Shown piece by piece: positions 11,603-39,281 of a DNA stretch of 64,000 bases. The stretch is from contig CAIQIR010000163.1 of assembly GCA_903871875.1 (NCBI GenBank), positions 1-64,000 of the forward strand, written 5' to 3'. The notes beneath the pieces are model-generated. The model searched no databases and was not told the origin of the DNA. It was given only the letters and a program-made list of their open reading frames with translations. This DNA is from an uncultured Schlesneria sp. (GTDB taxonomy: Bacteria; Planctomycetota; Planctomycetia; Planctomycetales; Planctomycetaceae). Position 1 is the stretch's first letter; every line of letters begins with the position of its first letter. The position numbers and the translations under genes were made by a program.

Positions 11603-12559
11603 CTAAAGCCTTTTAACGTACCGATTCCCTCGAGACATCGTCAGCCACATGACACTCAATGAGAGAATCGTCACGGCGATGATGCCGATCATTCCGGCGG
11701 CGGGAGTCGATATGGCCAATGATTGCAGACCGGGTACTTGGTAGTCGGCGAAAGGTGCAGACCAAACGGCCGACAGTGAAGACATGTCGAAACCTAATCG
11801 CTCGATTGTTGCCTCGAGCCCATCCGGATTTGTCGACGCGACGGTGGACAGGCCTACGGAGGTGAAAAGCGCGATGGCGGCTCCGGCAATGACCAGACCG
11901 TCGATTCCCTTCGTGGCCATGAGAGTGTCTGCCGGTCGATCGAGCAGACTCGGGCGGACTTGCGAGATGCAGGCAACGGCCAGGCCCGTGATCAGCATTT
12001 CGCCCACTCCGATGATGCTGTGAAAGTACTCCATGTTGGTCAAAGTCGATTCGAGTCGGAACATTCCACTGCCCGCCAGTTCGATCGAACACAAAATGGC
12101 ACCGATTTGAACGGCGAACCATGACGCGAGAGCCGCGCCGGCGATGATTCCCATTCGCCCACCGATACGACGCTGAACCGCGGAATACAGCGAGTATCCG
12201 AGCAACGATCCGATGATGCCCATGTTCAAAATATTCGCGCCCAAGGCGGTGACGCCGCCGTCATGAAACAGCAGGCTCTGCACGAGGAGCACGATTGACA
12301 TCGTAATTAAGCCCACCCACGGGCCGAGCAATGCCGCTGCCAATACGCCTCCCAACAAATGACCCGAGGTTCCTCCGACAATCGGGAAGTTCACCATTTG
12401 TGCCGCAAACACACAGCTCGCGGTCATTCCGATCAAGGGAATCGCTCCAGACTGAAGTTCCGTGCGCACGCGATGCACGGCATATCCCACTGTGGCGGCC
12501 GAAACAATTCCTGTACAGACACAAGTGGTGGGGTCGAGAATACCGTCGGGCAGATGCAT
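11603..12559 (-). CDS. CbiM/NikM-type nickel or cobalt uptake protein with C-terminal PDGLE domain
   Basis: This 318-aa membrane protein is the substrate-binding S component of ECF-type Ni/Co transporters. The N-terminus MHLPDGIL supplies the metal-binding His2. NFPIVGGTSGHLLGG and FHDGGVTALGANILNMG are the conserved CbiM segments. The C-terminal part carries the PDGLE-type domain (NPDGLEATIERLGF, APFADYQVPGL), as in NikMN fusions. ATG 12559 follows GGAGG at ideal spacing; the ATG at 12571 is part of that ribosome site. It closes the hydrogenase operon, so nickel is the likely substrate. The ATPase and T-component partners are not in the window. Confidence 0.88.
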   Translation of the reverse strand: MHLPDGILDPTTCVCTGIVSAATVGYAVHRVRTELQSGAIPLIGMTASCVFAAQMVNFPIVGGTSGHLLGGVLAAALLGPWVGLITMSIVLLVQSLLFHDGGVTALGANILNMGIIGSLLGYSLYSAVQRRIGGRMGIIAGAALASWFAVQIGAILCSIELAGSGMFRLESTLTNMEYFHSIIGVGEMLITGLAVACISQVRPSLLDRPADTLMATKGIDGLVIAGAAIALFTSVGLSTVASTNPDGLEATIERLGFDMSSLSAVWSAPFADYQVPGLQSLAISTPAAGMIGIIAVTILSLSVMWLTMSRGNRYVKRL

Positions 12560-12628
12560 GATTACCTCCATTATTCTCCCGTGTTGTCGTTATTGCGGAT
12601 CAGGGTCGCATCGATCTCACCCTGAATC

Positions 12629-13318
12629 TTACGAGTTCGAACCAACCCGCTGCTCAGCCCGCTTTGATTCGAGAAACTGCAGCCATTGAGGCATTCCGAA
12701 GCCCGTCTTGGCCGAAACCTCCAGGATTTGCATGCCAGGTCGAACCGCCTGCACGCTCGCAAAGGCCGCCTCGCGATCAAACTCCACTGCCGCCGCCAAT
12801 TCGACTTTGGTGATCACGGCGACATCGGCCGTATTAAAAATGGTGGGGTACTTGCGGGGCTTGTCTTCTCCTTCTGTCACCGAAAACAGCACCAATCGCA
12901 GGTCCTCGCCCAAGTCGTAGGTTGCCGGGCAAACGAGGTTCCCGACATTTTCGATGAACAGAAAATCGAGATCCTCCAATCGCCAGTCGGCAATCGCGTC
13001 CTTCACCATTAACGCTTCCAGATGACAAACAGAACCGGTGATGATTTGTCTGATGGGAACTTCCGCTCGCGCCAATCGCTTGGCATCGTTTTCGGTTGCC
13101 AGGTCTCCGACCAATGCCGCGCAGCGATAGCGTGAGCGAAGCATTTTCAGCGTCTGTTCCAGGAACATGGTTTTCCCGGTACCGGGACTGGAGACAAGAC
13201 TGACGACATAGACTCCACTGTCATGGAATCGTTGTCGCAAGGCCCGTGCGTCATTGTCGTTGGCCTTCAGAACCTGGGTTCTCACTTGCACCATTCGGGT
13301 TGTCGCCTGGATGGTCAT
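12629..13318 (-). CDS. hypB: Hydrogenase nickel-insertion GTPase HypB
   Basis: This 229-aa SIMIBI-class GTPase acts with HypA to insert nickel into the hydrogenase large subunit. The P-loop is SSPGTGKT (residues 43-50). ENVGNLVCPATYDLGEDLR and VTEGEDKPRKYP are HypB signatures. It lacks the N-terminal CxxCGC metal site and the His-rich stretch of some HypBs, so nickel storage is unlikely. The guanine-specificity motif reads TKVE rather than the usual NKxD/TKxD, an unusual Asp-to-Glu change. The start overlaps the hypA stop by 4 bp (ATGA), which implies coupled translation. Confidence 0.93.
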   Translation of the reverse strand: MTIQATTRMVQVRTQVLKANDNDARALRQRFHDSGVYVVSLVSSPGTGKTMFLEQTLKMLRSRYRCAALVGDLATENDAKRLARAEVPIRQIITGSVCHLEALMVKDAIADWRLEDLDFLFIENVGNLVCPATYDLGEDLRLVLFSVTEGEDKPRKYPTIFNTADVAVITKVELAAAVEFDREAAFASVQAVRPGMQILEVSAKTGFGMPQWLQFLESKRAEQRVGSNS

Positions 13319-13662
13319 TCTTCAATCTCCATCGCCACGATTTCTAATTCGCGGCCACTGATGACATCACCACAAGGGGTGCCACATTCGGGACAGCAGA
13401 AGTCTTGAAGGCTTGGCAGGATTTTTTCGGTTTGACACACGTGACACATCACGACCAGTGGCACCTCTTCCACCATCAACTGCGAATCGGCAAACGGCGA
13501 ATCTTCGCGAGCCAGATCGAATGCCGAAACCAACGCTTGCTTGATGACGCCGGATAATGGTCCCATTTTCAAATAGATCGATTTGATGACGGCGCCCCCT
13601 CGACGATCCGCCTCTTCACCGGCAATATCGAGGATGCTCATTGCCAGCGATAATTCATGCAT
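13315..13662 (-). CDS. hypA: Hydrogenase nickel-delivery protein HypA
   Basis: This 115-aa metallochaperone delivers Ni to the hydrogenase large subunit with HypB. The N-terminus MHELSLA contains the nickel ligand His2. The zinc site is Cys73/Cys76 (CHVC) and Cys90/Cys93 (CPEC). The length is typical. It sits between the 44-aa membrane ORF and hypB, overlapping hypB by 4 bp. Confidence 0.94.
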   Translation of the reverse strand: MHELSLAMSILDIAGEEADRRGGAVIKSIYLKMGPLSGVIKQALVSAFDLAREDSPFADSQLMVEEVPLVVMCHVCQTEKILPSLQDFCCPECGTPCGDVISGRELEIVAMEIEE

Positions 13663-13677
13663 CCCGATCAGCCCCTT

Positions 13678-13812
13678 TCACATGCTTCTGATGCGCAGGT
13701 AACGCGGCAATCCTGGAAGCTCGGCAAACATGCACAACAGAACCCAGAGGAAGATGAAGATCCCCAAGATGATGGCAAACAGATATTCCCCGAATGCAAA
13801 AACGGCGTTCAT
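13678..13812 (-). CDS. 44-aa single-pass membrane protein in hydrogenase operon
   Basis: This ORF is too short for usual cutoffs. It encodes a 44-aa protein: a short N-terminus, one hydrophobic helix at about residues 11-30 (LFAIILGIFIFLWVLLCMF) and a basic tail ending in LPRYLRIRSM. Its ATG (13812-13810) overlaps the TGA of the maturation-protease gene in an ATGA joint, the same arrangement used throughout this operon, which strongly favours translation. Length and the RYLRIRxM-like end recall the DUF6893 small-protein family; I cannot confirm that without a search. A membrane tether or stabilising subunit for the hydrogenase is a reasonable inference. Confidence 0.72.
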   Translation of the reverse strand: MNAVFAFGEYLFAIILGIFIFLWVLLCMFAELPGLPRYLRIRSM

Positions 13813-14378
13813 GATTGAAGCTCCCCTCCGCTTGGCGTCACGGCTTCCTGCGTGAACGAGGTGTCGCCCGAAGACATCGTTGAGATGTCGTCCGTGTCCC
13901 GAGATAGTTCCTCGACTAATTCTTCAATTCGATGGCAGGCAATATCGATCGCTGTGCGGACCGGTTCGCTCAGTCCCATCTTCCCTTCGAGTTCATCACC
14001 CAGATCTTCCGGTTCGCATCCCACCAGCAGAATTCGTCCGGGATTTCCCCCCAATGTCCGTACCATTCGCAGCACATTCAACGGATGCATACTGTGGGCG
14101 TCGATCAATAGATTTGATTCACCTGCATCTTCCAGACTTAATTCCATCGTGTAGACAGTTCCTGGGGTGCTTCCTTGCGGTGTGGCATCCACCAGGATCG
14201 TGGTCTCAATACCCTCCGTCAGTACAAATGCCAAATCCATGCCGCGTATCCCGTAGTCTCTGACGCAGACGCCATCGGGCCATTTGCGGTGTGACAGTCG
14301 GTGAACCACTTCACAGCCGAATTCATCATCCCCGCGGAAGATGTTCCCGATCCCCGCGATTAAGATCCGAGGTAGCAT
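13809..14378 (-). CDS. Hydrogenase maturation endopeptidase (HyaD/HupD/HybD family)
   Basis: This 189-aa protease removes the C-terminal extension of the large subunit after nickel insertion. The family motif GIGNIFRGDDEFG lies at the N-terminus, with the metal-binding acidic residue in DDEFG. DYGIRGMDLAF and the later DAHSMHPLNVLRMV supply the other expected ligand regions. Start ATG 14378 overlaps the preceding stop by 1 bp (TGATG); the longer upstream frame has no family resemblance. A C-terminal tail of about 35 Ser/Asp/Glu-rich residues is extra. Its likely substrate is the HhyL precursor at 18080-19885. Confidence 0.9.
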   Translation of the reverse strand: MLPRILIAGIGNIFRGDDEFGCEVVHRLSHRKWPDGVCVRDYGIRGMDLAFVLTEGIETTILVDATPQGSTPGTVYTMELSLEDAGESNLLIDAHSMHPLNVLRMVRTLGGNPGRILLVGCEPEDLGDELEGKMGLSEPVRTAIDIACHRIEELVEELSRDTDDISTMSSGDTSFTQEAVTPSGGELQS

Positions 14379-14707
14379 CAAGGGGCCTCCTGTCGATTGT
14401 CGGCTAATGCCATCGGTTCCACTTCTTCGGTGGAAAAGAAAAAGCGGTGACCGGGTTGTCGCTGCAAACCCCACTCGCGACCGGGGTCGTCATCGAGGAC
14501 GACGGCCAGGTGAATCTGGCCTTCAAAATCCTGTTCAATGGCTTCGATCGTCGCCACCTTCTTTCGCAGTGCGAGATCCATGATGTCACCACGTTGCTTC
14601 GGCCACAGGCGGACCTTCTCACCCGCGCGTAAATCGACTCCGAACACGCGAACAGACTCCAGTGGCGTGTCTTCGTTCTGTTCTGGCCAGGAAAAGTCGT
14701 CCTTCAT
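14378..14707 (-). CDS. Conserved hydrogenase-operon protein, 109 aa, unknown function
   Basis: A small soluble protein with no named motif that I recognise. The core looks like a compact beta-barrel (FGVDLRAGEKVRLWP, then IEAIEQDFEGQIHLAVVLDD) and ends with PGHRFFFSTEEVEPM. It overlaps the upstream 363-aa gene by 4 bp (ATGA) and the downstream protease by 1 bp, so it belongs to the hydrogenase operon. Similar small proteins occur in group 1h clusters as far as I recall. A role in maturation or assembly is inferred from position only. Confidence 0.75.
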   Translation of the reverse strand: MKDDFSWPEQNEDTPLESVRVFGVDLRAGEKVRLWPKQRGDIMDLALRKKVATIEAIEQDFEGQIHLAVVLDDDPGREWGLQRQPGHRFFFSTEEVEPMALADNRQEAP

Positions 14708-15795
14708 TTCAATGTTACTCCCTTTTCTTCCGCAGCCATTTGCGATTCGTTGATCGATCCCATTCCTCGCATGGCACCGTGCAGTGTTTCCAGATAATCC
14801 TCTGGCAAGCTCTCCGTTCGTTCCAATAGCCGTCGTGCTTGTTCGTCGACCGACCGCATTTCTCGTTGTTCCTCAGGTGTCATCGTCATGATTCGCAGCA
14901 TCAGCATTTCGTCAATTTCTGTGGCGTCAAAAAAGTCCCCCGGACTTTCTTCGGCGATCTGCGGATAGTCGTAAAGAATGATGGGCGACGCGAGCATCGT
15001 TCCGCGGTCGTCGTTTTCGCCGACTAGCACGGGCCAACAGCCATGTTGCTGGCATTCGGCCGCCTCCTGGACCAATTCTGGCTCAGGATCCAACAACGAA
15101 GAAAACTGTCCTTCCGTGGCCGTCAATACGGCATGCGTCGAAGCAAAGGAGGATAAGAGCGCTTGCTCGCGAGTCAGCGAATCGGCATCGGGCAGCGGCG
15201 TTTCGTTACGAATGGTGACTCGCAGCCGATGAAGATCATCCGCTAGTCGTGTCGCCTTTACGGCCACCGTCCCCCAAAGTTCTTGCTGAGTTCGAACGAC
15301 CAGCCCCGCTTGTTTTTGATCGATACCGCAAATCGTTTCCGTTGTGGTACTGGGGCCGAATTTGAACAGGATTTCACGGGTGGCGCCGCAAAGATCCTGG
15401 ATTATCAAATCCAAGGAATCGACTTGGCGTTCAATGGCTTCTTGCCAGGTCTGATAACGCTGTTGATCCACCTCGAGGAAGTCGACCGGCCGTGTCGGCC
15501 GCCCCAGCATTGACGGGCTGAATGGGTTCGCGGCGACGAACTGTTCTACCTGCCGTTGAAGCAGATGCAGGAAGCGGGCTCGAATTCGCACGGAAGGCGC
15601 GGGCCCTCGCAAAAGACACTCGGTCTGCATGGTCCAAGATTCGTTACCCGAATGAGCTTCGCTATAGTCTCGCGGGACAATTGCGCCGAAATTGAACCGC
15701 TGGCGATTTTTTACCGCCGAGGCTCGATAGGGATACAACAAATAGCCCTCGTAGAGCACCGCCTGTGTAATTCGATCGACCAGTGGTTGTTTCAT
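14704..15795 (-). CDS. Conserved hydrogenase-operon protein, 363 aa, unknown function
   Basis: This protein carries no recognised domain. It starts MKQPLVDRITQAVLYEGYLL and contains YPYRASAVKNRQRFNFGAI near residues 20-40. The middle has mixed beta segments (GTVAVKATRLADDLHRLRV, then TVRNETPLP-like strands) and the C-terminus is helical, with MLRIMTMTPEEQREMRSV. It has no signal peptide, membrane helix or obvious Cys cluster. ATG 15795 overlaps the upstream stop by 4 bp. Context makes it part of the group 1h accessory set, possibly a scaffold or maturation factor. This is inference. Confidence 0.78.
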   Translation of the reverse strand: MKQPLVDRITQAVLYEGYLLYPYRASAVKNRQRFNFGAIVPRDYSEAHSGNESWTMQTECLLRGPAPSVRIRARFLHLLQRQVEQFVAANPFSPSMLGRPTRPVDFLEVDQQRYQTWQEAIERQVDSLDLIIQDLCGATREILFKFGPSTTTETICGIDQKQAGLVVRTQQELWGTVAVKATRLADDLHRLRVTIRNETPLPDADSLTREQALLSSFASTHAVLTATEGQFSSLLDPEPELVQEAAECQQHGCWPVLVGENDDRGTMLASPIILYDYPQIAEESPGDFFDATEIDEMLMLRIMTMTPEEQREMRSVDEQARRLLERTESLPEDYLETLHGAMRGMGSINESQMAAEEKGVTLK

Positions 15796-16439
15796 GACGG
15801 CACCTTTTGGGCTTTCAATGACAGCAAACGTTGAATCGTTTGATCCCAAGTGGGGATTCCCTCAAGACACTTGAATTGATAAAGCTGGGCGAACACGTCA
15901 TGTCGCAGGCAAAGCCAGGCCGAGTTCGGATAATAGAATTCCATCATCCGCTTCCAGACTGACACGGGCAGGCGATATCGCGCTTCCTTGGACCAAGGAA
16001 TCTGCGTCACTTGCAGTAACCCCGTTTCTTCGCGGTAAAAAATCGAACCGCTGAACAGCAGCAACAGCGGGATTTCTCCCTGTTCCAATCCATAAAAATA
16101 CTTCGTCGCCGCGACATTAAAGTCGTATGTGCAAGGTACCTGTAAATCGACGAGCGTCTCGCCCTCGAAAGGCGGGACTAGCGTCCCGACGCGAGTCCAA
16201 TGCATGCTGCGTAACGTTTCCCCCCAACGGTCCGGCGTGCCAAATAAATCAATTAGTTCCGCTTGTTCATCGGGCGTATATTGCCGCCGGACGGATTCGA
16301 TCTGAATCTGGCATTGCAGCAGCACATTTTGAATCGATCTTGCCTGTCCGCCGCGGACACGAAGTTTGAGAACAAGTGTCGGAACGGCGGCATGTTCCAG
16401 CGAATTCGCACCCTCGACGGAGAAATCAATGTCAGACAT
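15792..16439 (-). CDS. DUF6084-like hydrogenase accessory protein
   Basis: This 215-aa protein begins MSDIDFSVEGANSLEHAAVP. I recognise it as the DUF6084-type protein of group 1h hydrogenase loci: a long beta-rich domain (VPTLVLKLRV, IQIESVRRQY, VDLQVPCTYDFNVAATKYF), then GEIPLLLLFSGSIFY and a tail with YYPNSAWLCLRHDVF. No catalytic residues are evident. The start overlaps the end of the DUF5947 gene by 8 bp and the stop overlaps the next gene by 4 bp. The family assignment is from memory of motif and context. It probably aids assembly or electron transfer. Confidence 0.75.
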   Translation of the reverse strand: MSDIDFSVEGANSLEHAAVPTLVLKLRVRGGQARSIQNVLLQCQIQIESVRRQYTPDEQAELIDLFGTPDRWGETLRSMHWTRVGTLVPPFEGETLVDLQVPCTYDFNVAATKYFYGLEQGEIPLLLLFSGSIFYREETGLLQVTQIPWSKEARYRLPVSVWKRMMEFYYPNSAWLCLRHDVFAQLYQFKCLEGIPTWDQTIQRLLSLKAQKVPS

Positions 16440-17091
16440 GGGCATCCTCCGAATCCGATTTGGCCGTCCGCCGGATCCCGTCGAAGAACTCACGCACGCG
16501 TTTCCAAACCTCGGTGCCGCCTGACAGTCCGCGCCAGTGCATCCGCAGCAAGCCGACCAGCTTGTAACACTGATCGATGGGCGCCAGGAAATAGTCATCC
16601 GTCAAGAACCCGACGCGTGAGCCCATCCGGTTCACCAGCAAAGCTTCCACATCCGGTTGCATGGTGTTCAATGCTAAATGGCCGCGAATGATCTCGTGCC
16701 ACTTGTCCAGGTGCAGCAAGGATTCCACAGGGCCTGCGGGGCTAGGGTAGAAGGCGACCATTTTCTTGGCCGAACTATCGAAAAAGAAGAAGGCCATATT
16801 GATCGGGATCATCAGGCTGTCCCAATCGGAATCGGTCAATTGAAAGTCGTTCAACCGGCGAACGTCGCGGGGAACGCGACGGTACTTCAGCTCGGTGGAT
16901 CCCGAGAACAACAGTCCGCAGGCGATGCACGAACAGAGCAGCCGCCGACTCTGGGGTTCGACCAAATGATCGTGTTCGGGCGGTAATTCCAGCCCGCAAA
17001 GTTCGCAGCGTTCGACGGGAGGTTTCCGCTGTCCAGAGAACTTTCGCAGTGTGGCGAACGTCTTGAGCATCGAACTGCTTGAGCTGTTCAT
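16432..17091 (-). CDS. DUF5947-like Cys-containing hydrogenase accessory protein
   Basis: This 219-aa protein has an N-terminal metal-binding knuckle: CELCG (Cys29, Cys32), and CSCIACG (Cys53, Cys55, Cys58). A larger domain follows with SDWDSLMIPINMAFFFFDS and MVAFYPSPAGPVESLL, as in DUF5947 proteins of group 1h hydrogenase clusters. ATG 17091 overlaps the upstream NifU/Rieske stop by 4 bp, and frame continuity upstream is accidental. It may bind zinc or an iron-sulphur cluster. Its role with the hydrogenase is unknown. Confidence 0.78.
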   Translation of the reverse strand: MNSSSSSMLKTFATLRKFSGQRKPPVERCELCGLELPPEHDHLVEPQSRRLLCSCIACGLLFSGSTELKYRRVPRDVRRLNDFQLTDSDWDSLMIPINMAFFFFDSSAKKMVAFYPSPAGPVESLLHLDKWHEIIRGHLALNTMQPDVEALLVNRMGSRVGFLTDDYFLAPIDQCYKLVGLLRMHWRGLSGGTEVWKRVREFFDGIRRTAKSDSEDAHV

Positions 17092-17960
17092 GGTGACACC
17101 GCCAGTGCGACACGTGTCGTTCCGCCGGTTTGCAGCAACGGCAGCGGTTCCAGATGCAGTGACGGTGCGTCCAGACAACGACCGGCGCGCATCACATCAA
17201 ACTGAGCGCCACAATCCGGACACGAAAGGACACTTCCCGCCAGGCTTCCCGTTTCCAGCGGCTTTCCACATCGGGAACAATCATTCTGGTAGGCGTACAA
17301 TCCGGAATTCAAACGCAGAAACAAGACGCTTTGGTCGTGCAGGTCTCGCGTGTCGACTTCTCCATCCGCCAGATCTTGCAGACCACCGACTTCCTCCCAC
17401 TGGGAAGCCGAACTGTCCTCGGCCGCGCGTTCGAGTGTTTCCACCGGAATAAAGCCCTTCGGTGAGGGCGGTACAACGCCTTCCACTTCCAGCCCGGCAA
17501 TGTCCGGAGCCGTTTCGTAAATGGACTCTTCGATCGCCATCTTCAACGTCATGGCTGAGGATGGACAGCCGTGGCAACTTCCCTGCAGTCGCAATCGGAC
17601 AACGCCATCGTCGATTTCCACCAGCTCCACATTTCCGCCATGCGACTTGAGATACGGTCGTACTTTGTCCAGAGCTTTACCCACACGAGTGGGCAGATCG
17701 ACAGGATGCAATCCATGCAGCAGCAGTAATCCGGAAACCGATTGGTCTTCCGCCAGCCGCAGCAGCGCGCCGTCGCTGGTGGCGATTTGCTGGGTCACGA
17801 TCTTCAACAGACGTTCCAGACCTGTTCGGTGCAGTTCCATGACCAATTGCACCAACTCGGTCGCGGTGTCGCGAGTTTCCTCGTCAGCGACGTGCTCGAG
17901 CCGCTCAACCAGCGTGTCGATCATTTCCCATCGCGGTTGCAGCAAATCTTCGTCGATCAT
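17088..17960 (-). CDS. NifU-domain / Rieske-like fusion, probable Hhy electron-transfer protein
   Basis: This 290-aa protein has a helical N-terminal region (1-85), a NifU C-terminal-like domain (about 90-165) with CHGC (Cys129, Cys132), which can carry a [4Fe-4S] cluster, and a Rieske-like fold (about 187-290). In that fold the usual Cys/His pairs are replaced by four cysteines: CSRCG (Cys228, Cys231) and CPDCG (Cys247, Cys250). It would therefore hold a Cys4 centre rather than a true Rieske cluster. The gene lies directly after hhyL. By position it may match the HhyE protein proposed as electron acceptor of mycobacterial Hhy; that is inference. Start ATG 17960. Confidence 0.82.
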   Translation of the reverse strand: MIDEDLLQPRWEMIDTLVERLEHVADEETRDTATELVQLVMELHRTGLERLLKIVTQQIATSDGALLRLAEDQSVSGLLLLHGLHPVDLPTRVGKALDKVRPYLKSHGGNVELVEIDDGVVRLRLQGSCHGCPSSAMTLKMAIEESIYETAPDIAGLEVEGVVPPSPKGFIPVETLERAAEDSSASQWEEVGGLQDLADGEVDTRDLHDQSVLFLRLNSGLYAYQNDCSRCGKPLETGSLAGSVLSCPDCGAQFDVMRAGRCLDAPSLHLEPLPLLQTGGTTRVALAVSP

Positions 17961-18079
17961 GGAAATCTGCCGATCTGTGAAAGTGAAATGAAATCTGTCT
18001 GCGAACCACGGCGAGTGACGCGCCGATTGGCCAGGATGAACCTGGACTCACTCGGCGCGTCCTCCGGCACCAAGTCTGG

Positions 18080-19885
18080 TTACGTTTGCTGGAAGTGCTG
18101 ACCGAACATGGGCGAATGATGCATGTCCAGATGTTTTCCATTCCCCAGGTACATGTGGACTCCACAAGGAAGGCAAGGATCGAAGCTGCGAACGGCACGC
18201 ATGATGTCGATGCCTTTGAAGTTCTCGGGTCCGTTCTCTTCGAAAATGGGCGTGTTTTGGACCGCGTCTTCGTAAGGCCCCAAGGTTCCATAGATGTCGC
18301 GCGGATTCGCGTTCCAGGGTGTCGGCGGATAAGGATGATAGTTCGCGATCTTCCCGCCACGGATGACGACGTGGTGCGACAACACACCACGTACCGCTTC
18401 ATGGAAGCCGCAACCGATGGCTTCGTCGGGAACGGCAAATTCCGACCAAGTCTTCGTCCGCCCCGCGTGCAATTCCTTCATCGCCCGTTCGGCGAAATAG
18501 AGTGCGCATCCCGCGGCATAGGCCTGGAAATAGGTCCGGGCTCGATCACGTTCGATCGCGTTGCTCCACTGCGGAATCTGCCATTCAAACTCGACTTCGG
18601 GTTTTGTCGCCGTCTGGGGCAGATAAATCTTGACACTCTGGCCCGTCGCTTTCACATAGCCGATGTCCACTTTGCCGGCCAGCGCTGTAGCCCAGAAGCG
18701 GGCGATCGGTCCGCCACCCGTATCGAGTGCCAGGTAATCGCCGGTCCGTTTGTCGAACCAGCGCGGACACATGACCCAGGTATAGTTTCCATTGAAATCC
18801 CGTTTTTGCGGCTTCGGAATCGTCGTCTGGTTCCAGGGGTGTCGCTGATCAACGGGATTCCCTAATGGATCGTTCTTCACGAACGTTTCTTTATCTTCCC
18901 AATCTTCGTAGTAAGAACTGCCCAGCAGGATCCGGATCCCAAGATTGATATCCACCAGATTCGTGGTGACCAGTTTTCCATCGACCACGATCCCTGGGGT
19001 GACGAACATCTTGTTACCCCATTCATTCATCCGCTGGTAGGTGTAGTCGCAGTCGTCCGGATCCTGAAACGATCCCCAGCATCCCAGCAGAATTCGCCGT
19101 CGGCCCACTTCCTCATATCCGGGCAAGGCCTCGTACCAGAAGTCGAACAGATCGTCGTGCAGCGGCAGACACTTTTTCATGAATTCGACATACCGCATCA
19201 GGCGTACGATGTAGTCGGTAAACAGCTGAACGGTCGGAACCGTACCGACACCTCCGGGATACAAGGTCGAAGGATGGACATGGCGTCCTTCCATCAGACA
19301 GAACATCTCCCGCGTGTAGCGACTGACCAACAGCGTTTCGCGATAGAACTCGCCGGTGAACGGGTTCAATGCTCGCATGATGTCGGCGATGGTCTTGTAG
19401 CCATGGTCGGCGGCGTGGGGGGCGGGCGTCTTTTCGGCCAGCGCGAGCACCCCGGGATTGGTTTCGCGAACCATCTGCTCGCAGAAATCGACACCGACGA
19501 GATTATCCTGAAAGATGTTATGGTCGAACATATATTCGGCCGCTTCTCCCAGGTTGACAATCCATTCACCGAGTGCCGGTGGCCGCACTCCAAATGCCAT
19601 ATTTTGAGCGTAGTTCGCACAGCAGGCGTGGTTGTCGCCGCAGATCCCACAGATGCGGCTGGTGATAAAATGGGCGTCGCGAGGGTCCTTCCCTTTCATG
19701 AAGACGCTGTAGCCGCGGAAGATCGATGACGTGCTGAAGCACTCGGCCACTTTCCGATTGGCAAAATCGATCTTGGTGTAGATGCCGAGGCTACCCACGA
19801 TGCGAGTGATCGGATCCCAGTTCATCTCAACGAGATTACTACCTTCCGCGCGATTTCGTTTTTTGGGTTGGACTGTCGTGGCCAT
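18080..19885 (-). CDS. hhyL: Group 1h [NiFe]-hydrogenase large subunit
   Basis: This 601-aa catalytic subunit oxidises H2 at a NiFe(CN)2CO centre. The L1 motif is RICGICGDNHACC (Cys79, Cys82) and the L2 motif is FDPCLPCGVH (Cys571, Cys574). This form, with PCLPCGVH, is typical of group 1h (group 5) enzymes that scavenge trace H2 in air. A 24-residue tail follows His577 and would be the substrate of the maturation protease if processed canonically. ATG 19885 has AGGAG at proper spacing; the upstream extension is unlike the family. The gene is 175 bp downstream of hhyS. No signal peptide is present. Activity with atmospheric H2 is inferred from the family. Confidence 0.95.
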   Translation of the reverse strand: MATTVQPKKRNRAEGSNLVEMNWDPITRIVGSLGIYTKIDFANRKVAECFSTSSIFRGYSVFMKGKDPRDAHFITSRICGICGDNHACCANYAQNMAFGVRPPALGEWIVNLGEAAEYMFDHNIFQDNLVGVDFCEQMVRETNPGVLALAEKTPAPHAADHGYKTIADIMRALNPFTGEFYRETLLVSRYTREMFCLMEGRHVHPSTLYPGGVGTVPTVQLFTDYIVRLMRYVEFMKKCLPLHDDLFDFWYEALPGYEEVGRRRILLGCWGSFQDPDDCDYTYQRMNEWGNKMFVTPGIVVDGKLVTTNLVDINLGIRILLGSSYYEDWEDKETFVKNDPLGNPVDQRHPWNQTTIPKPQKRDFNGNYTWVMCPRWFDKRTGDYLALDTGGGPIARFWATALAGKVDIGYVKATGQSVKIYLPQTATKPEVEFEWQIPQWSNAIERDRARTYFQAYAAGCALYFAERAMKELHAGRTKTWSEFAVPDEAIGCGFHEAVRGVLSHHVVIRGGKIANYHPYPPTPWNANPRDIYGTLGPYEDAVQNTPIFEENGPENFKGIDIMRAVRSFDPCLPCGVHMYLGNGKHLDMHHSPMFGQHFQQT

Positions 19886-20060
19886 GAACGGACTCCTGGT
19901 GAGCAATCGATGCTCGGATGGGAATTTGATTCTGACACGAGGCTTCCAGGCCGCTTTCGCAGCCAGACACGATTCACCCGCCGCGAATGCGGCTGGACAA
20001 TGTTTTTCATTCGGGACGTTCATCAACACCGTCGAAGACCGCACTACGGTCGACTGTCTG

Positions 20061-21122
20061 TTACTTGGATCTGACGTATTTGCTCTGATATCCGGTCGTC
20101 AGCTGAGGCTGGTTATGTCGCCACCGCGGTTCTTGATTCAATTTCCTCTGCGTCATCCGGCGCAGTGGAGTGATAATTTTGCCGTAAAACTTCGACGCCA
20201 ACGTGGAGACGCGCGCACCGGGCGGCTCGTCCATAAACGGCATAAATTTGTCGGGGAACCCGGGCATTGTGCAGCCGATACAGATTCCGCCCACGTTCGG
20301 ACAGCCGCCAATACCGGCCATCCAACCGCGTTTGGGAACGTTGCAGTTGACGACCGGACCCCAACAGCCCAGTTTGACCAGGCACTTGGGTGATCCGTAT
20401 TCCGATGCGAAGTCAGATTGCTCGTAGTAACCCGCCCGATCACAACCTTCATGCACCGTATGTTCGAACAGCCATTTGGGACGCAGGGCTTCGTCCAGCG
20501 GGATCATGGGAGCCAATCCGGCGACCTGATACAGCAGATAGAGCAACGTCTCCATGAAGTTATCGGGTTGAACGGGACAACCGGGCACATTGACGATCGG
20601 CAGCCCGGCTTTCGATTTCCAGTTCCAACCCAAATAGTCCGCGACGCCCATCGCGCCTGTCGGATTCCCAGCCATCGCATGAATTCCGCCATATGTCGCG
20701 CATGTTCCAGCGCAGACCACTGCGATCGCCTTAGGGGCTAGCCGATCGATCCACTCGTTAGTGGTAATCGGTTGCCCCGTTTTTGAGTCTGTTCCAAGGG
20801 CGGCCCAGTAACCTTCGGACTTAATCTTCTCGTTCGGAATCGACCCTTCCAGAACAAGGACGAACGGATCGAGTTCACCGCGTGCCGCTTTGTGCCAATA
20901 CTGCATGAAGTCATCGCCGACCTCATACGCCAGCACCGGATTATGCACATGAACCTTCGGCAAACCGGGAATGGCCCCCATGATCACATCTTCGATACTG
21001 GGCTGACTTGCCGCCGTAATCGAGACCGAATCACCGTCGCATCCTAAGCCCGTTGTCATCCAGACAATATGAATCTCGGCCACGTCCGGTTTTCGTTTTG
21101 CTTGTATGGCAGGTGAGGGCAT
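20061..21122 (-). CDS. hhyS: Group 1h [NiFe]-hydrogenase small subunit
   Basis: This 353-aa electron-transfer subunit carries iron-sulphur clusters. At the proximal-cluster site it reads GLGCDGDSVS: Cys28 is followed by Asp31 where most hydrogenases have Cys, the 3Cys-1Asp ligation known for group 1h enzymes. Other conserved cysteines appear in CAGTCATYGG, PGCPVQPDNF, LGCWGPVVNCNVP and GGCPNVGGICIGCTMPGFP. There is no Tat signal or C-terminal membrane helix, so it is cytoplasmic or held at the membrane by partners. ATG 21122 follows AAGGAG. A sigma-54-like site lies just upstream. Confidence 0.95.
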   Translation of the reverse strand: MPSPAIQAKRKPDVAEIHIVWMTTGLGCDGDSVSITAASQPSIEDVIMGAIPGLPKVHVHNPVLAYEVGDDFMQYWHKAARGELDPFVLVLEGSIPNEKIKSEGYWAALGTDSKTGQPITTNEWIDRLAPKAIAVVCAGTCATYGGIHAMAGNPTGAMGVADYLGWNWKSKAGLPIVNVPGCPVQPDNFMETLLYLLYQVAGLAPMIPLDEALRPKWLFEHTVHEGCDRAGYYEQSDFASEYGSPKCLVKLGCWGPVVNCNVPKRGWMAGIGGCPNVGGICIGCTMPGFPDKFMPFMDEPPGARVSTLASKFYGKIITPLRRMTQRKLNQEPRWRHNQPQLTTGYQSKYVRSK

Positions 21123-21150
21123 TTTGACTTCTCCTTGCGAGGGATCCTGA

Positions 21151-21166
21151 AGCGTTTTGTGTGCCT
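21151..21166 (-). promoter_or_regulatory. Possible sigma-54 promoter before hhyS
   Basis: On the minus strand the sequence AGGCACACAAAACGCT keeps GG and GC at the -24/-12 spacing of TGGCAC-N5-TTGC, with two mismatches in the -12 box. It would place a start near 21140, 18 nt before the hhyS ATG. Tight but possible. Confidence 0.35.
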
Positions 21167-21200
21167 AAACACGAAAAAAGGCCTTAGATTGAGATGTTTT

Positions 21201-21684
21201 TCAGAATGCGAAAATCATTCGTCGTTCGGGGGGCGCAACGGCAATCTGCCACAGTCGCAATATTGTCGCGATCGACGCCTGCCCATTCAGAATGGGCAAC
21301 ACGGCTCGACTCGTCTGCTCGGTGAACAGTTCTGATCGACCAATGACGACCAGGACGAAGCCAAAGGAATACATGATCGCGACCAGAATCTCTCTGACTC
21401 CGAAGGGCCGCTCGTTGAAATTCAAGGCGTGGATGCGAGCCATCAGCAGGAGACTGAAACCGAGTTCCAATCCCACGGAAGAGCTCGAAAAAAAACAGCC
21501 GGCTATTGGTAATGTCCAGAGTGTGGCGGGCTTCTTTCCGCTCGTGACGCATGATTTGGGCCGATGGTTTTTGGGGTTCCTGTTCGACAGCATCAGGCAC
21601 CGCTCCACTGACAGTCTCCTCGGATTCGGCCATCACCGCAGTGTTGGTCGTCCGAATGGGCATCGGTTTGAGCAGAGGTGACAT
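21201..21684 (-). pseudogene. Frameshifted, truncated formate/nitrite transporter (FNT, YfdC-like) remnant
   Basis: The first half in one frame reads QEPQKPSAQIMRHERKEA and then TNSRLFF. After a run of eight A/T pairs (21488-21495) the other frame continues SSSSVGLELGFSLLL, then AIMYSFGFVLVVIGRSELFT and ATILRLWQIAVA, a good match to the first helices of FNT channels of the YfdC type. Removing one T from the run restores a single frame. The C-terminal 40 percent or so of the protein is missing. The start ATG (21684) overlaps the hypE stop as TGATG, so it was once a translated member of the operon. Confidence 0.75.
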
Positions 21685-22769
21685 CAGCAAATCCTTGGTA
21701 ACTGTTCTCCTGCTAGCATGGTCACAACACGTTCCCCGCCGATGACCGATTTCAGAACCACCATGTCGGGGTGATCAGCGACGACGGTGCCAATCTCGGC
21801 GGCATCTTTGCCGTACGGATGGCGGCGCATTGCGTCCAGGACTTTGTCGGTGGCTTCGGCGGGCACGACCGCGATTAGTTTTCCTTCATTGGCCACATAC
21901 AGTGGGTCGAGTCCCAACATTTCGCAGGCTCCGCGGACTTCGCGGCGTATTGGCAGGCGCGATTCCTGCAATTTGATGCCGACCTTCGATGCGGTCGCGA
22001 GCTCGTTCAGACTGCTGGAGACCCCGCCGCGGGTTGGGTCGCGCATGCACCGAATTTGCGGACAGGCCTCAAGCATCGCTTCGGTGAGGCCATTCAGCGG
22101 GGCGCAATCGCTTTTCAGCACGGTTTCGAATTCAATCCCCTCGCGCTGGGACATGATGGTGACGCCGTGGTCGCCGATCGTCCCGGAAATCAGGATGCGA
22201 TCACCGGGGCGGGCATGATGGATCGACAGTGTCCGTCCTGCGGGAACCCAGCCAATTCCAGAAGTGGTAATGAAGATCTGATCTCCTTTACCGCGATTGA
22301 CCACTTTCGTGTCCCCTGTGACCAACATGATTCCGGCGTCTGCACACGCCGCCCGCATTGAGGCCACGATGCGACGCAAATCATCGATCAACAATCCCTC
22401 TTCTAAGATAAATGCGGCCGAAAGGAATTGGGGGATCGCCCCGCCCACCGCCAAATCATTGACCGTGCCGTGGACGGCGAGTTTGCCAATATCACCCCCA
22501 GGGAAAAACAGCGGCTGTACCACGAAGGAATCGGTGGTGAAGGCCAGTCGAGGGGTCTGATTTCCGTTTTGCCGGACCCAACTCGACAAATCCAGAGTGG
22601 CCTGATCCTCAAGTGCTGAGAGCACCGGATTGTCCCACGCGGGCAGGAACGTGTTCTGGATGAGTTCTGCTGACATCTTGCCGCCGCTGCCATGTCCCAG
22701 CAGGACACGATCACGCTCGCCGAGTGGCAGCGGACAGCTCATTCGACCAAAGTCGATGACGTTGGACAT
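21684..22769 (-). CDS. hypE: Hydrogenase maturation protein HypE
   Basis: This 361-aa protein belongs to the PurM-like ATP-dependent family. It dehydrates the carbamoyl group on its C-terminal Cys to a thiocyanate that becomes the cyanide ligand of the NiFe site. The sequence shows LLGHGSGGKMSAELI at the N-terminus, TGDTKVV and MRDPTRGG in the core, and ends in PRIC, so the essential terminal Cys361 is present. It follows hypD by 52 bp and its stop overlaps the start of the FNT remnant. Confidence 0.95.
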   Translation of the reverse strand: MSNVIDFGRMSCPLPLGERDRVLLGHGSGGKMSAELIQNTFLPAWDNPVLSALEDQATLDLSSWVRQNGNQTPRLAFTTDSFVVQPLFFPGGDIGKLAVHGTVNDLAVGGAIPQFLSAAFILEEGLLIDDLRRIVASMRAACADAGIMLVTGDTKVVNRGKGDQIFITTSGIGWVPAGRTLSIHHARPGDRILISGTIGDHGVTIMSQREGIEFETVLKSDCAPLNGLTEAMLEACPQIRCMRDPTRGGVSSSLNELATASKVGIKLQESRLPIRREVRGACEMLGLDPLYVANEGKLIAVVPAEATDKVLDAMRRHPYGKDAAEIGTVVADHPDMVVLKSVIGGERVVTMLAGEQLPRIC

Positions 22770-22821
22770 TGTGTTCCCATCGAAGAGACAACACCGCGTT
22801 CAAGCTGAGGAACGGTTTCAA

Positions 22822-23982
22822 TCAATCCAAAGTGACATTTCCAATCCGATCACGTCTATGAATCTGATAAGTTTCCGAACCGACGGCCATGGGGTGCCGC
22901 AATCGACCGTAGTTGTAGTAAGCGGCGCACGCTCCTTCGGACGAGACCATGGTGGCGCCCAACGGGTGCTCGGGCGTGCAGGTTTTGCAAAACGCCTGGC
23001 ATTGATGCGGTTTCTTAATTCCTTGCAGGATCTGCCCGCTAATACAAAGTTCCGATTCCTGGACGGCGAACTGTGCAACGTCAAATCGCTGTTCGGCATC
23101 AAACTGTTCATAAGCGGGGGCCAACCGGTAACCACTATTCGGGATCGTACCGATCCCGCGCCATTTGCGATCGCCTACCTCGAACACGTCGTGAATCAGT
23201 TGAATTGCCAGTGGACTTCCTTCGCGGCGAACGGCGCGCGAGTACTGATTGCCGACGCCGATTCGATTTTGTTCCAGCATGCAGATGCACTCGTAGATAC
23301 CTTCCAGCAGGTCAAGCGGCTCAAATCCGGTCACCACAATCGGAATTTGAAACTCTTCTGCAATCGGAATGTACTCTTCATAGCCCATCACCGCGCAGAC
23401 ATGTCCGGCACCCAGAAATCCCTGAACTCGATTGTTCGGTGACGACAGGATGGCGGTCATCGCGGGGGGGACAATGACGTGTGAGACCAGCACGGCGAAG
23501 TTATTCAGATTCCGTTTTTTCGCCTGCGCGACCGCCATCGCATTGGCCGGGGCGGTCGTCTCGAATCCCACGGCAAAAAAGACGACCACGCGATGGGGAT
23601 TCTGTTCGGCGATCTTCAGGCAGTCGAGCGGTGAGTAGACGACCCTGATGTCTCCGCCCGAGGCCTTGGTCGAAAAGAGATCACTTTGGCTGCCCGGCAC
23701 TCGCAGCATGTCGCCAAAGGAACAAAAAATGACTTCCGGACGACCAGCAATCGCAATGGCTTTGTCAATCAGCTCTAACGGCGTTACACACACCGGACAG
23801 CCTGGGCCATGAACCAACTCGACTTGCGGCGGCAGCAATTCATCGATCCCATATTTCACAATCGTGTGAGTCTGCCCGCCGCACACTTCCATAATTGTCC
23901 AGGGCCGAGTCGCGACTCGGGCGATCGCCGTCTGCAATTTGGCTGCCGCCACCGGATCGCGATATTCGTCTTGAAATCTCAT
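22822..23982 (-). CDS. hypD: Hydrogenase maturation protein HypD
   Basis: This 386-aa [4Fe-4S] protein works with HypC to assemble the Fe(CN)2CO unit. Signature segments are [28 protein letters not shown] and SRVMGYEEY-like [13 protein letters not shown]-terminal cluster cysteines lie in [23 protein letters not shown] and [14 protein letters not shown]. The start overlaps the hypC stop by 4 bp (ATGA). Confidence 0.95.
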
Positions 23983-24284
23983 GTTTCCCCCTCACGAGAT
24001 TCGCAGGTGACTGCCGCAAAATGGCCCGGAAGGGCAATTTCGCCTGCGTGAAGTTCCTGCAAGTCATCCATCTGCCTTAAGAATCGAAAAACTTGTTCCG
24101 CTTCGATGGCATCAATGACCTGTAAAGAAAAACCGACATGCACGATCACAAAATCCCCGACCTTGGCGTCGGGGGTATGCTGCAGGCAAACTCGTTTGTA
24201 GACACCTCCGAAATCGACTTTCGCCATCGACATGTCATGTTCGGTATAGGTCTCGATCACTTCGCCAGGAATGCCTAGGCACAT
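23979..24284 (-). CDS. hypC: Hydrogenase assembly chaperone HypC
   Basis: A 101-aa chaperone of the HypC/HupF family. The N-terminus MCLGIPGEV contains Cys2, which binds the Fe precursor and the large subunit. [19 protein letters not shown] and [14 protein letters not shown] are typical. The ATG at 24284 is chosen because Cys2 must follow the start Met; the upstream frame is not homologous. The tail is about 20 residues longer than average. Confidence 0.94.
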
Positions 24285-24300
24285 GAAGAAGATCCTTTTG

Positions 24301-26670
24301 CTAACGAACCTGATCCTGGGCGGCAGCAATGGCTAATTGGCCGAAGCTGATTCCGCCATCGTTACATGGAATGCGATGTTGCAGGTAAACCCGAAATCGA
24401 TCGGCCGTCAATTCCTGCAACGCTTCTTGTGAGAGCAAGGAATTCATGAAAACCCCGCCACTGAAGACAACTTCCTCAATTCCGAAATCACGCCGTAATT
24501 TCTGGCAAACGACTTTCATCATTTGAACAACGGTGGAATGAAATCGTCTGGCGATCAATTTCGGTTCCACGGCAGCGGAAATGTCGTCTATGATCGCTCG
24601 AATCAGGGGGCGAGTATCAATTTGGAGACAGGATCGCCCATCCAGATCGCGAGATTCATCGAGTTCGAATGGATAAGAAAGATCGTGCGGAGTACCGATT
24701 GCCAGCAATTCTAGTTCCACTGCCGCTTGGCCTTCGTAACTGATATGCGTACGAACACCAATCAGTGCCGCGACGGCATCGAACATTCGGCCCATGCTCG
24801 ACGTCAACGGGGTGTTAAACTGTCGATCGATCATCTGCTGAATTGTCTTGAAGGCCTCAGAACCGACTTGCTCTGCAAGCGATGCAGAATGGCATTGGGC
24901 ATCGATCAAATGAGCGACGGCGCTGCGCCAGGGTTCGCGAATCGCCGCGTCACCACCGGGAAGGCCCACGTAGCGAAGATGTGCAACTCGCTGGAAACTA
25001 CGATAACCGGCAATGAAAAATTCGCCACCCCAAATTTTTCCATCGGTTCCCAATCCTGTGCCATCAAAGGCCACACCGATCACCGGACCTGATAACCGAT
25101 GTTCGGCCATCCCGCTGGCGATGTGAGCATGATGATGCTGTACCGCGAGCAATTGCAGAGACGATTCGCGGCCACGATCACGCGCGTAAGTCGTGCTGGC
25201 GTACCCAGGATGCAGGTCATGAATCAACCGCAACGGACGAGTATCAAATAGGTTTTCATAAAGCTTGATATCTCGTTCGAACGCCTGAAACGCGGCGAAG
25301 TGGTCCAGGTCGCCAAGATGATGGCTGACGAAGGCCAAATTCTCCCGACCCAAGGCAAACGTCGACTTCAGTTGGGCTCCCACCGCCAGCGTCGGCATGG
25401 CGAGTTGCATTGGAAGCGATAACGGCTCGGGCGCATAACCGCGCGAACGACGTAGAAGCGTCTCTTGCCCGGCGGAAACTCGAGCGACCGAATCATCGCA
25501 GCGAACATGGATGGGACGATCGTGCGTCAGCACCAGATCAACGATCCCCACCAGACGTTCCAGGGCGTCGGCATCGTCATAGGCGATTGGTTCGTCTGCT
25601 CGATTCCCGCTGGTCATCACCAGCAGTTTAGACTCGACTGCGTTCATCAAGAGATGATGCAGCGGAGTGTAAGGCAGCATCAGGCCGAGGTAATGACTGG
25701 CCGGTGAAACCGAGTGTGCGACTGTTGTCGCGGATTCATCCTGACGGATCTGCAGCAGCACAATAGGCCGCCGTTGTGATCGCAGCAATGTGACTTCCGC
25801 TGCATTGATGCGGCAATAACGTCGTGCTTCATCGACCTGACTGACCATCAGCGCGAACGGCTTCTGATCCCGCTGCTTGCGGTGCCGCAGCTCAGCAACG
25901 GCCGACTCGTTGCCGGCATCACAAACGAGGTGGTAACCGCCCAGTCCCTTGAGTGCTCCAATCTGTCCACGCAGAATCGCCGCCGCGAAGTCACTCACCG
26001 GGTCGCTCGTTTCGATGGTCTGACCGGTCGGCGTCAATAACCGCAACCGTGGTCCGCATGCCGCGCAACACGTGGGCTCTGCATGAAATCGGCGATTGGC
26101 GGGATCGTCATATTCGCGTTGACAGTCGGTACACATCGCGAAGGCGGTCATCGTCGTTCGCTGCCGGTCGTAGGGAGCTTCGCGAATGATCGTCAGTCGT
26201 GGTCCGCAGTTCGTGCAATTGAGGAACGGATAGCGGTATCTGCGGTCCTGGGGATCGAGCAGTTCCCTCAAACAATCCGCGCAGGTGGCGACATCAGGAG
26301 AAATGAATACCGCCGATGAGGTTCGGTATGCGACGCTGGCGACGATCCGAAACGAGACGTCGTTTGTGACCGGTAGCAGCCGCCATTCCACTGATTCGAT
26401 CCGAGCCAATGGAGGAGCCTCATCGGCCAGCCGCGTCGAAAAGCAGACCAACTGTTCCTGCGGTCCTTCCACCTCAAGATATACTAACCCCGATTCATTT
26501 CTCACGAAGCCAGCGAGACCCAAGTCCAGTGCCAGTCGATGAACAAATGGTCTAAACCCAACCCCCTGCACCAGACCCCGCACGACGAATGCCCGGCGCT
26601 GCAAAGAGCGGTCATTCAGACTCGTCACGCCGACATTCTGCTCGCATGACGCTTGGTCATTCTGCTTCAT
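24301..26670 (-). CDS. hypF: Carbamoyltransferase HypF
   Basis: This 789-aa multidomain enzyme makes the carbamoyl group for the cyanide ligands from carbamoyl phosphate and ATP. In order: acylphosphatase domain (VVRGLVQGVGFRPFVHRLA), two zinc-finger segments (CADC, CTNCGP, CTDC, CAACGP), a YrdC/Sua5-like domain (LKGLGGYHLVCDA, MLPYTPLHHLLM), and a Kae1-like domain with the metal motif QHHHAHIASGMAEH and FSGGVFMN. ATG 26670 is preferred over the TTG at 26721 because the acylphosphatase domain then has a normal N-terminal length. The stop is 16 bp before hypC. Confidence 0.94.
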   Translation of the reverse strand: MKQNDQASCEQNVGVTSLNDRSLQRRAFVVRGLVQGVGFRPFVHRLALDLGLAGFVRNESGLVYLEVEGPQEQLVCFSTRLADEAPPLARIESVEWRLLPVTNDVSFRIVASVAYRTSSAVFISPDVATCADCLRELLDPQDRRYRYPFLNCTNCGPRLTIIREAPYDRQRTTMTAFAMCTDCQREYDDPANRRFHAEPTCCAACGPRLRLLTPTGQTIETSDPVSDFAAAILRGQIGALKGLGGYHLVCDAGNESAVAELRHRKQRDQKPFALMVSQVDEARRYCRINAAEVTLLRSQRRPIVLLQIRQDESATTVAHSVSPASHYLGLMLPYTPLHHLLMNAVESKLLVMTSGNRADEPIAYDDADALERLVGIVDLVLTHDRPIHVRCDDSVARVSAGQETLLRRSRGYAPEPLSLPMQLAMPTLAVGAQLKSTFALGRENLAFVSHHLGDLDHFAAFQAFERDIKLYENLFDTRPLRLIHDLHPGYASTTYARDRGRESSLQLLAVQHHHAHIASGMAEHRLSGPVIGVAFDGTGLGTDGKIWGGEFFIAGYRSFQRVAHLRYVGLPGGDAAIREPWRSAVAHLIDAQCHSASLAEQVGSEAFKTIQQMIDRQFNTPLTSSMGRMFDAVAALIGVRTHISYEGQAAVELELLAIGTPHDLSYPFELDESRDLDGRSCLQIDTRPLIRAIIDDISAAVEPKLIARRFHSTVVQMMKVVCQKLRRDFGIEEVVFSGGVFMNSLLSQEALQELTADRFRVYLQHRIPCNDGGISFGQLAIAAAQDQVR

Positions 26671-26736
26671 GCCTACCCCGCAGCGTTCTTGTCCCTCGTG
26701 AACTGAAGGGACAGAACGCAAATTCCGCCAGAAAGG

Positions 26737-26931
26737 TCAGATGTTCTGAAGCTCCTGGCCACAACACTGGAAATGGACCTCTTCCGATTTATCGCACCGA
26801 CAATCGGAGGTGACTTCGATCGACATGCCACACTTTGAACACTGATAACGGTCGCCTCTCTTCGGTGCGAAGATGTGATTGGTGGTTCGCGGTTGAGTCT
26901 TGCTGGCTTTGTTTGGTGTATTCGTAGTCAT
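26737..26931 (-). CDS. 64-aa Cys-rich metal-binding protein (desulforedoxin/zinc-ribbon-like)
   Basis: A small protein with a basic, Thr/Asn-rich N-terminal half and a metal knuckle: YQCSKCGMSIEV, then DCRCD and FQCCGQEL. The CxxCG and CCGQ pairing resembles the N-terminal desulforedoxin-like domain of superoxide reductases, which binds Fe(Cys)4. AAGGA lies at good spacing before ATG 26931. It is the first gene of the hydrogenase run, 66 bp before hypF, with a sigma-54-like site upstream. A rubredoxin-like redox or metal role is inferred. Confidence 0.72.
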   Translation of the reverse strand: MTTNTPNKASKTQPRTTNHIFAPKRGDRYQCSKCGMSIEVTSDCRCDKSEEVHFQCCGQELQNI

Positions 26932-34188: not shown

Positions 34189-34253
34189 GATCAAAATCCC
34201 TGAAAACCGAGGAACTGAGCCGCGGATAAGACTGTCTGGCACACAGCACGTGT

Positions 34254-39050: not shown

Positions 39051-39199
39051 TCCGCATCATCGTCACGTTCGTAATGACAGTCACTCCAAAAGCCGAATTC
39101 TGCGGTGACGGCATCTTTTGGCGTTCTCCTCTATGTGGGACGAATGACGAATTTGAAAGCTAAGGATGACGGCTGACATGGTCTTCATCCTGGTGCCTG

Positions 39200-39215
39200 C
39201 CGTGCACTCGCACGG
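39200..39215. promoter_or_regulatory. Inverted repeat upstream of porin gene
   Basis: CCGTGC-ACTC-GCACGG is a perfect 6-bp-arm inverted repeat 66 bp before the porin ATG. It overlaps a weak -24/-12-like sequence, TGGTGCCTGCCGTGCA (39191-39206). It may be an operator for the adjacent response regulator. The assignment is speculative. Confidence 0.35.
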
Positions 39216-39281
39216 TCACGAATTCTCACTCTCGGATTTGGAATTGACCGCCACGGGCGGTTCTTGCGAAGGAGCGCTTCA

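Follow-up and report, generated by a model that had tools for sequence, protein, structure and literature searches.

A complete group 1h [NiFe]-hydrogenase cluster in a Schlesneria genome, and the unequal conservation of metal ligands in its accessory proteins

The uptake of atmospheric H2 by soil has been tied to the group 1h class of [NiFe]-hydrogenases, and two acidobacteria with enzymes of this class are reported to draw on atmospheric H2 when carbon is limiting (PMC8027828). Membership of the class does not prove atmospheric uptake, because the group 1h enzyme of R. eutropha is described as cytoplasmic and of low affinity, with a Km of 3.6 uM (PMC7174314); H2 affinity varies within the class (PMC7174314, PMC8027828). 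The genes of the R. eutropha H16 actinobacterial-type hydrogenase (hofKG, PHG064-070, pHG1) run in the order small subunit, large subunit, NifU-like protein, DUF5947 protein, DUF6084 protein, unnamed protein and protease, and the same cassette is found for mycobacterial Hhy, in M. smegmatis (PMC6883350) and, with the genes in the same order, in a plasmid locus of M. intracellulare (L103). One question left open in PMC6883350 and PMC7174314 is how group 1h enzymes hand over their electrons. In M. smegmatis the NifU-like protein, HhyE, is required for Hhy activity and has cautiously been proposed as an electron acceptor, on a motif analysis that excluded truncated HhyE; the same paper also allows for a role in maturation or as a scaffold (PMC6883350). 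PHG067, which by gene order (with PMC4377017) is the DUF5947 homologue of R. eutropha, is cited as an electron acceptor proposed by Schafer et al. 2013 (PMC6883350). The M. smegmatis counterpart, from gene order and the published description, is MSMEG_2717. Methylacidiphilum SolV oxidises sub-atmospheric H2 and, according to the authors of PMC7174314, is without homologues of the Pyrinomonas operon proteins. Group 1h enzymes have already been reported in Planctomycetes, including the cultured Singulisphaera acidiphila, where they grouped with acidobacterial HhyL (PMC8027828); a literature search returned no paper on both Schlesneria and hydrogenase.

The stretch of DNA analysed here (the window, 64,000 nt) belongs to contig C163 of a 7.61-Mb genome that is 99.99% complete. 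A first-pass annotation had described a complete cluster with hhyS, hhyL, hypABCDEF, a protease and at least five accessory genes on one strand, a description that is borne out: all the named genes were found by domain matches on the minus strand between 26931 and 11603, with family E-values far from chance (Table 1, in gene order), and the accessory genes are those for HhyE, DUF5947, DUF6084 and two proteins that belong to no family in Pfam or NCBIfam. These two are called U381 and U109 here, after the lengths of their open reading frames. With the likeliest starts, seven of the 15 junctions overlap (by 4, 4, 14, 4, 4, 1 and 4 nt) and the other eight are gaps of 16-561 nt, the widest, of 561 nt, separating hypE from hhyS, so that "mostly" joined by overlaps, as first stated, is too strong. 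At 26931 the boundary coincides with the start codon of a 64-aa ORF that is rich in cysteine and was not found in G001, a separate assembly of the same genus in which hypF to hypB are syntenic with the window. Homologues of this ORF at 43-44% identity occur in two other genomes of the genus, neither with a full HhyL. The window was also scanned for Rfam families at gathering score and for tRNAs, with none found.

Table 1. Features of the hydrogenase cluster and its margins, with window coordinates
Feature	Position	Strand	Evidence and remarks
64-aa cysteine-rich ORF, upstream of hypF	26740..26931	-	probably outside the unit
hypF, carbamoyltransferase	24301..26670	-	TIGR00143 6e-236; likeliest start
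hypC, chaperone	23979..24284	-	PF01455 1e-22; likeliest start
hypD	22822..23982	-	PF01924 3e-152
hypE	21684..22769	-	TIGR02124 9e-139
hhyS, small subunit	20061..21122	-	HofK (5AA5) 652 bits; GLGCDGDSV common to HofK; PF14720 (NiFe_hyd_SSU_C) 1e-23
hhyL, large subunit	18080..19885	-	HofG (5AA5) 1180 bits; tree; NiFeSe_Hases 5e-58; likely ATG 19885, open frame from 20044
hhyE	17088..17960	-	PF01106 5e-25 (NifU-like, CHGC); PF00355 7.5e-8 (C-terminal, two CxxC; Rieske/zinc-ribbon-like)
DUF5947 protein	16432..17091	-	PF19372 5e-66; conserved C29 C32 H40 H42 C53 C55 C58
DUF6084 protein	15792..16445	-	PF19562 6e-87; C105 in 76/76 sequences
U381, accessory protein (363 aa from likely start)	14704..15795	-	no Pfam/NCBIfam family; in other phyla its homologue makes up the N-terminal part of a fusion protein
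U109, accessory protein	14378..14707	-	no Pfam/NCBIfam family; predicted SH3-like barrel; elsewhere fused to U381 or protease
Hydrogenase maturation endopeptidase	13809..14378	-	TIGR00072 5e-33, PF01750; likeliest start
hypA	13315..13662	-	PF01155 9e-27
hypB	12629..13318	-	TIGR00073 2e-78
cbiM with PDGLE domain, orphan ECF substrate component	11603..12559	-	PF01891 3e-57, PF13190 1e-12; not conserved with the cluster

The enzyme had been assigned to group 1h, with a phylogeny of the large subunit proposed as the check. Compared with solved sequences, HhyL matches HofG (PDB 5AA5) with 1180 bits, the next best of 61 matched sequences reaching 148 bits, and HhyS matches HofK with 652 bits. The tree was built from 56 large subunits, among them representatives of groups 1d, 2b and 3d (R. 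eutropha) and an enzyme of the same genome read as 3b; the window's HhyL falls inside the group 1h clade, which takes in 48 of the 56 rows (100/98), including HofG and actinobacterial HhyL. Four distant actinobacterial relatives branch adjacent to it, and groups 1d, 2b, 3b and 3d lie outside on very long branches. Many forks within the 48-row clade are poorly supported; the window's HhyL pairs with that of G001 (100/100), to which it is 94% identical. Read in the protein, HhyL has the motifs SRICGICGDNH and SFDPCLPCGVH, which we take to be the two CxxC nickel-site motifs, followed by a cleavable tail, and in alignment the solved HofG chain stops at the same CGVH histidine. HhyS shares the motif GLGCDGDSV with HofK, its CDGD presumably being the Cys/Asp motif of the proximal cluster, and its N-terminus, read by eye, has no Tat signal. 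The accessory cassette HhyE-DUF5947-DUF6084-U381/U109-protease is likewise present. With its complete gene set, the locus is an ordinary representative of a known class, a new member and no surprise.

The cassette was followed through a genome scan of which the best 80 of 586 confirmed relatives were kept, so that the counts favour loci whose HhyL shares 74-85% identity with that of the window. The full set of eight genes (structural, accessory and protease) is present in 66 of these 80 loci, and 62 of the 66 have the window's gene order, the other four being verrucomicrobial with a different one. Taken singly in the same best 80 of 586, hhyS and hhyE each accompany hhyL in 78 loci (hhyE in 79 at a looser limit), DUF5947 in 73, DUF6084 and U381 each in 72, U109 in 70 and the protease in 68; several of the 14 loci with an incomplete cassette are short contigs. 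The cassette is standard for group 1h. Among the described systems, R. eutropha differs from the window in that its HhyE has 192 aa and no CxxC, U381 and U109 are a single protein, and hypF, C, D and E lie downstream, whereas in the window they lie upstream of hhyS; that enzyme is reported to be low-affinity and cytoplasmic (PMC7174314). Mycobacterial HhyE is full-length like that of the window, with the NifU CxxC and two C-terminal CxxC (PMC6883350), although the HhyL is 78% identical and the hyp genes are otherwise arranged. Three planctomycete loci, of Singulisphaera GP187, Isosphaeraceae and Gemmataceae (L047, L058 and L049), share this cassette and carry hypF-C-D-E immediately ahead of hhyS-hhyL, and their HhyE keeps the NifU CxxC like the window's but has 181-193 aa and no C-terminal domain.

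Group 1h is rare in planctomycetes: HhyL was found in one of 392 evenly drawn genomes (E <= 1e-50), the window's own, and in full length in two of 15 genomes of the genus, six further genomes having short weak matches only. The six planctomycete HhyL rows form no single clade in the best tree, where the window and G001 stand apart from the others, L047, L058 and L049 among them. A separate gain of the enzyme within the phylum was considered and not upheld, as a forced planctomycete clade was not rejected with six rows (p-AU 0.143) or five (0.121). The same genome has a second hydrogenase cluster on contig C10 (L098:7611-14611), group 3b-like by eye, with a diaphorase-like subunit, small and large subunits, a protease, hypA, hypB, hypD and probably hypE.

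If HhyE were the iron-sulfur relay of the class, its ligands would be expected to be conserved in oxidisers of atmospheric H2, and this is not what was found. In an alignment of 82 HhyE (the window and 81 others, the 64-aa fragment L029 left out), the NifU CxxC is kept in 28 and missing in 54, and a C-terminal domain with at least three of its four cysteines is present in 14. The motif region of the 54 proteins without CxxC has no cysteine in 27 cases, one in 21, CxC in five (streptomycete loci) and three cysteines in one, and 18 of the 82 proteins have no cysteine at all. The rows are not independent, many coming from Paraburkholderia; mapped on the 48 rows of the HhyL tree, the CxxC changes state at least seven times and the C-terminal domain at least eight. 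Edaphobacter aggregans and KBS 83 consumed H2 below the atmospheric level, with Km(app) of 95 and 173 nM, and both have a second hhyS-like gene (PMC8027828). The HhyE of Edaphobacter aggregans (L034) has 197 aa and is cysteine-free, and a search of its genome revealed no second HhyE-like place; that of KBS 83 (L039) has one cysteine, and other matches in its genome are short and weak. Because these two consumers of sub-atmospheric H2 have HhyE with one cysteine or none, an Fe-S relay through HhyE can hardly be the general mechanism of group 1h. The window's own HhyE keeps all its metal ligands.

The DUF5947 protein behaves differently, as the conserved ligands stand against the eroding ones of HhyE. 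In a first set of the window and 75 other sequences, one 117-aa fragment being left out, residues C29, C32, H40, H42, C53, C55, C58 and C175 are invariant in 76 of 76, the first seven forming the motif CxxC-HxH-CxCxxC. Among 40 loci from whole-genome searches, the seven ligands are kept in 39, the frame of the remaining one (L152) starting inside the motif, and C175 is kept in 35, with alanine in five; six of the 40 repeat sequences of the first set, and the new ones give 33 of 34 for the seven ligands and 29 of 34 for C175. The family (PF19372) occurs in 13 of 247 acidobacterial genomes, and HhyL at E <= 1e-100 is found in exactly these 13. At that limit 37 of 296 actinobacterial genomes have HhyL, 26 at 65% identity or more and 11 at only 37-44%; DUF5947 is found in 26 of the 296, of which 24 lie within the 26 canonical-HhyL genomes and none within the 11 distant ones, and hhyL and the DUF5947 gene are within 4 kb on the same contig in 22 of the 24. 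In planctomycetes DUF5947 occurs in one of 392 genomes, the window's own. DUF5947 thus tracks canonical HhyL, in 13 of 13 acidobacterial and 24 of 26 actinobacterial genomes. Of the exceptions, G696 (L161:9300-10825) has a canonical hhyL and hhyE, then low-complexity RDRD/GDGD sequence where DUF5947 is missing, then DUF6084, which may reflect genuine loss or faulty assembly; in G838 a cut hhyL runs into hypE, which looks like an assembly fault; and G843 and G924 have DUF5947 with HhyL absent at E <= 1e-100.

The predicted DUF5947 model (pLDDT 88.0, pTM 0.82) matched no fold among solved structures at E <= 0.001 and gave no whole-fold match. Weak short matches at ranks 37, 41 and 42 (E 1.6-1.7, prob 0.38-0.41) are ribosomal and Munc13/RIM entries, which we take to be zinc fingers. 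The protein may be either an electron exit or a zinc-bearing assembly factor. The distant actinobacterial large subunits (L157, L158, L159 and L160) are 40-42% identical to the window's HhyL and are accompanied by hhyS, and in the stretches fetched none of DUF5947, DUF6084, U381 and U109 was found. HhyE-like proteins are encoded in three of these four loci, all three with the NifU CxxC intact, and DUF5947 in none, a pattern that would fit a hand-over of function from HhyE to DUF5947, in three cases only. We tentatively propose, as a reading that could well prove wrong, that canonical group 1h enzymes have their general metal-dependent partner in DUF5947 and not in HhyE, as electron exit or as essential metal-delivery factor, that HhyE serves as a scaffold whose clusters were lost several times over after DUF5947 had become established, and that U381, U109 and the endopeptidase work together as a single maturation module. 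DUF5947 as an acceptor is already in print; the contrast between its conserved ligands and the eroding ones of HhyE was not found in the literature searched, nor was any paper combining two or more of DUF5947, DUF6084 and hydrogenase.

The grouping of U381 and U109 with the protease stems from gene fusions. Within the best 80 of 586, a single open frame encodes both U381 and U109 in 38 of 72 loci, which include Proteobacteria, Actinobacteria and Verrucomicrobia. U109 and the protease are joined in this way in 15 of 70 loci, 13 of them acidobacterial, and L079 alone is counted for both types. At the five remaining cassette junctions that were tested, none of 75-82 loci has a fusion. These fusions suggest a common task of U381 and U109 with the maturation protease, of a kind that fusion leaves unspecified; most likely the two proteins act with the endopeptidase in assembly. 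In a model of the fused protein L042 (mean pLDDT 76.5, the U381 part uneven), the portion that corresponds to U109 is similar to PetP (7r0w_V, 64 residues, TM-score by target 0.78, E 0.014), with nitrile hydratase beta as a less clear match; we assume both to be SH3-like barrels. The best fold matches of U381 (DrmAB, secretins, nitrile hydratase beta) were set aside for their low TM-scores, which leaves the short PetP match of U109 as the one that looks usable.

Beside what is observed in gene content, family membership, conserved ligands, co-occurrence and fusions, the locus is very probably a complete standard group 1h operon that, with its own maturation genes, would serve the oxidation of trace to moderate H2. 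HypA-F would assemble the NiFe(CN)2CO site and the endopeptidase would cut the HhyL tail after ...DPCLPCGVH, probably assisted in assembly by U381 and U109. With no twin-arginine signal, HhySL would be cytoplasmic and probably docked to the membrane, where it would oxidise trace to moderate H2 when carbon is short, electrons passing from the small subunit to a small metalloprotein partner, the quinone pool and an oxidase. Both candidate partners, HhyE and DUF5947, are encoded here with all their metal ligands. A soluble low-affinity uptake enzyme of the same class, living like the R. eutropha enzyme on locally produced H2 instead of H2 from the air, is an unlikely reading that still deserves weight, in that the window's HhyL is 82% identical to HofG, whose enzyme is reported to be cytoplasmic with a Km of 3.6 uM (PMC7174314); against it, two acidobacterial strains with HhyL 81-83% identical used sub-atmospheric H2 and were judged mid- to high-affinity by their authors (PMC8027828). 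HhyE is no help in deciding affinity, because R. eutropha and both acidobacterial strains alike have a short form that lacks CxxC.

Origin and surroundings raise two further alternatives, both far less probable than low affinity. Upstream on the same strand lies a nas module (27189-35630) with NarK, a NirB-NirD fusion, a 4Fe-4S/DmsC-like single-chain anchor fusion and NasA, which suggests a quinol-fed assimilatory nitrate reductase. It is very improbable that the two form one unit in which electrons from H2 drive nitrate reduction through quinol and the anchor, even though all genes from 11603 to 35630 share a strand and the Fe-S/DmsC fusion could use quinol, since the cluster of G001 has no adjacent nas genes, G010 and G014 have the module beside the same two-component pair and no hydrogenase, the Fe-S/DmsC protein occurs in nine of 15 genus genomes against two of 15 for full HhyL, and the 80 HhyL loci (best 80 of 586; up to 10 kb each side, often less) hold no convincing nas cluster, only one nasA-like match of 23% and two nirB-like of 25-27%. 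H2-driven nitrate assimilation was rejected, the adjacency being conserved in neither direction; with the G001 cluster lacking nas and nas lacking hydrogenase in G010 and G014, the adjacency most likely reflects local history rather than a functional unit. That the cluster is assembly or binning contamination from an acidobacterium is scarcely credible: the identity of HhyL to acidobacterial loci reaches 85% (best 80 of 586), but the contig also carries two genes of the DUF1559 family, which we take to be typical of planctomycetes, and, upstream, the genus-conserved nas module and regulators, and G001 has the same cluster. The planctomycete-like genome first described is supported by the two DUF1559 proteins and by HypD and HypE, whose nearest counterparts among the loci fetched come from named Planctomycetota (66-71% identity).

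On the plus strand, 36493-40979 encodes a PilJ-PAS sensor kinase, a LuxR-type response regulator and an alginate-export porin; the two-component pair adjoins the nas module in G010 and G014, and the porin does so in G010. At the other end, a nickel-uptake component had been named: CbiM with its PDGLE domain is present, but a role as the cluster's dedicated nickel importer is not supported, with no CbiQ or CbiO beside it and no cbiM in the neighbourhood of the G001 cluster. Another contig of the genome has CbiQ with adjoining ORFs that are CbiM-like and ABC-ATPase-like by eye.

The contrast between a cysteine-free HhyE in a consumer of sub-atmospheric H2 and seven near-invariant ligands in DUF5947 makes the electron question of group 1h testable. 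The planctomycete locus, in which both ligand sets are kept, is one more case in a phylum where the enzyme is rare.
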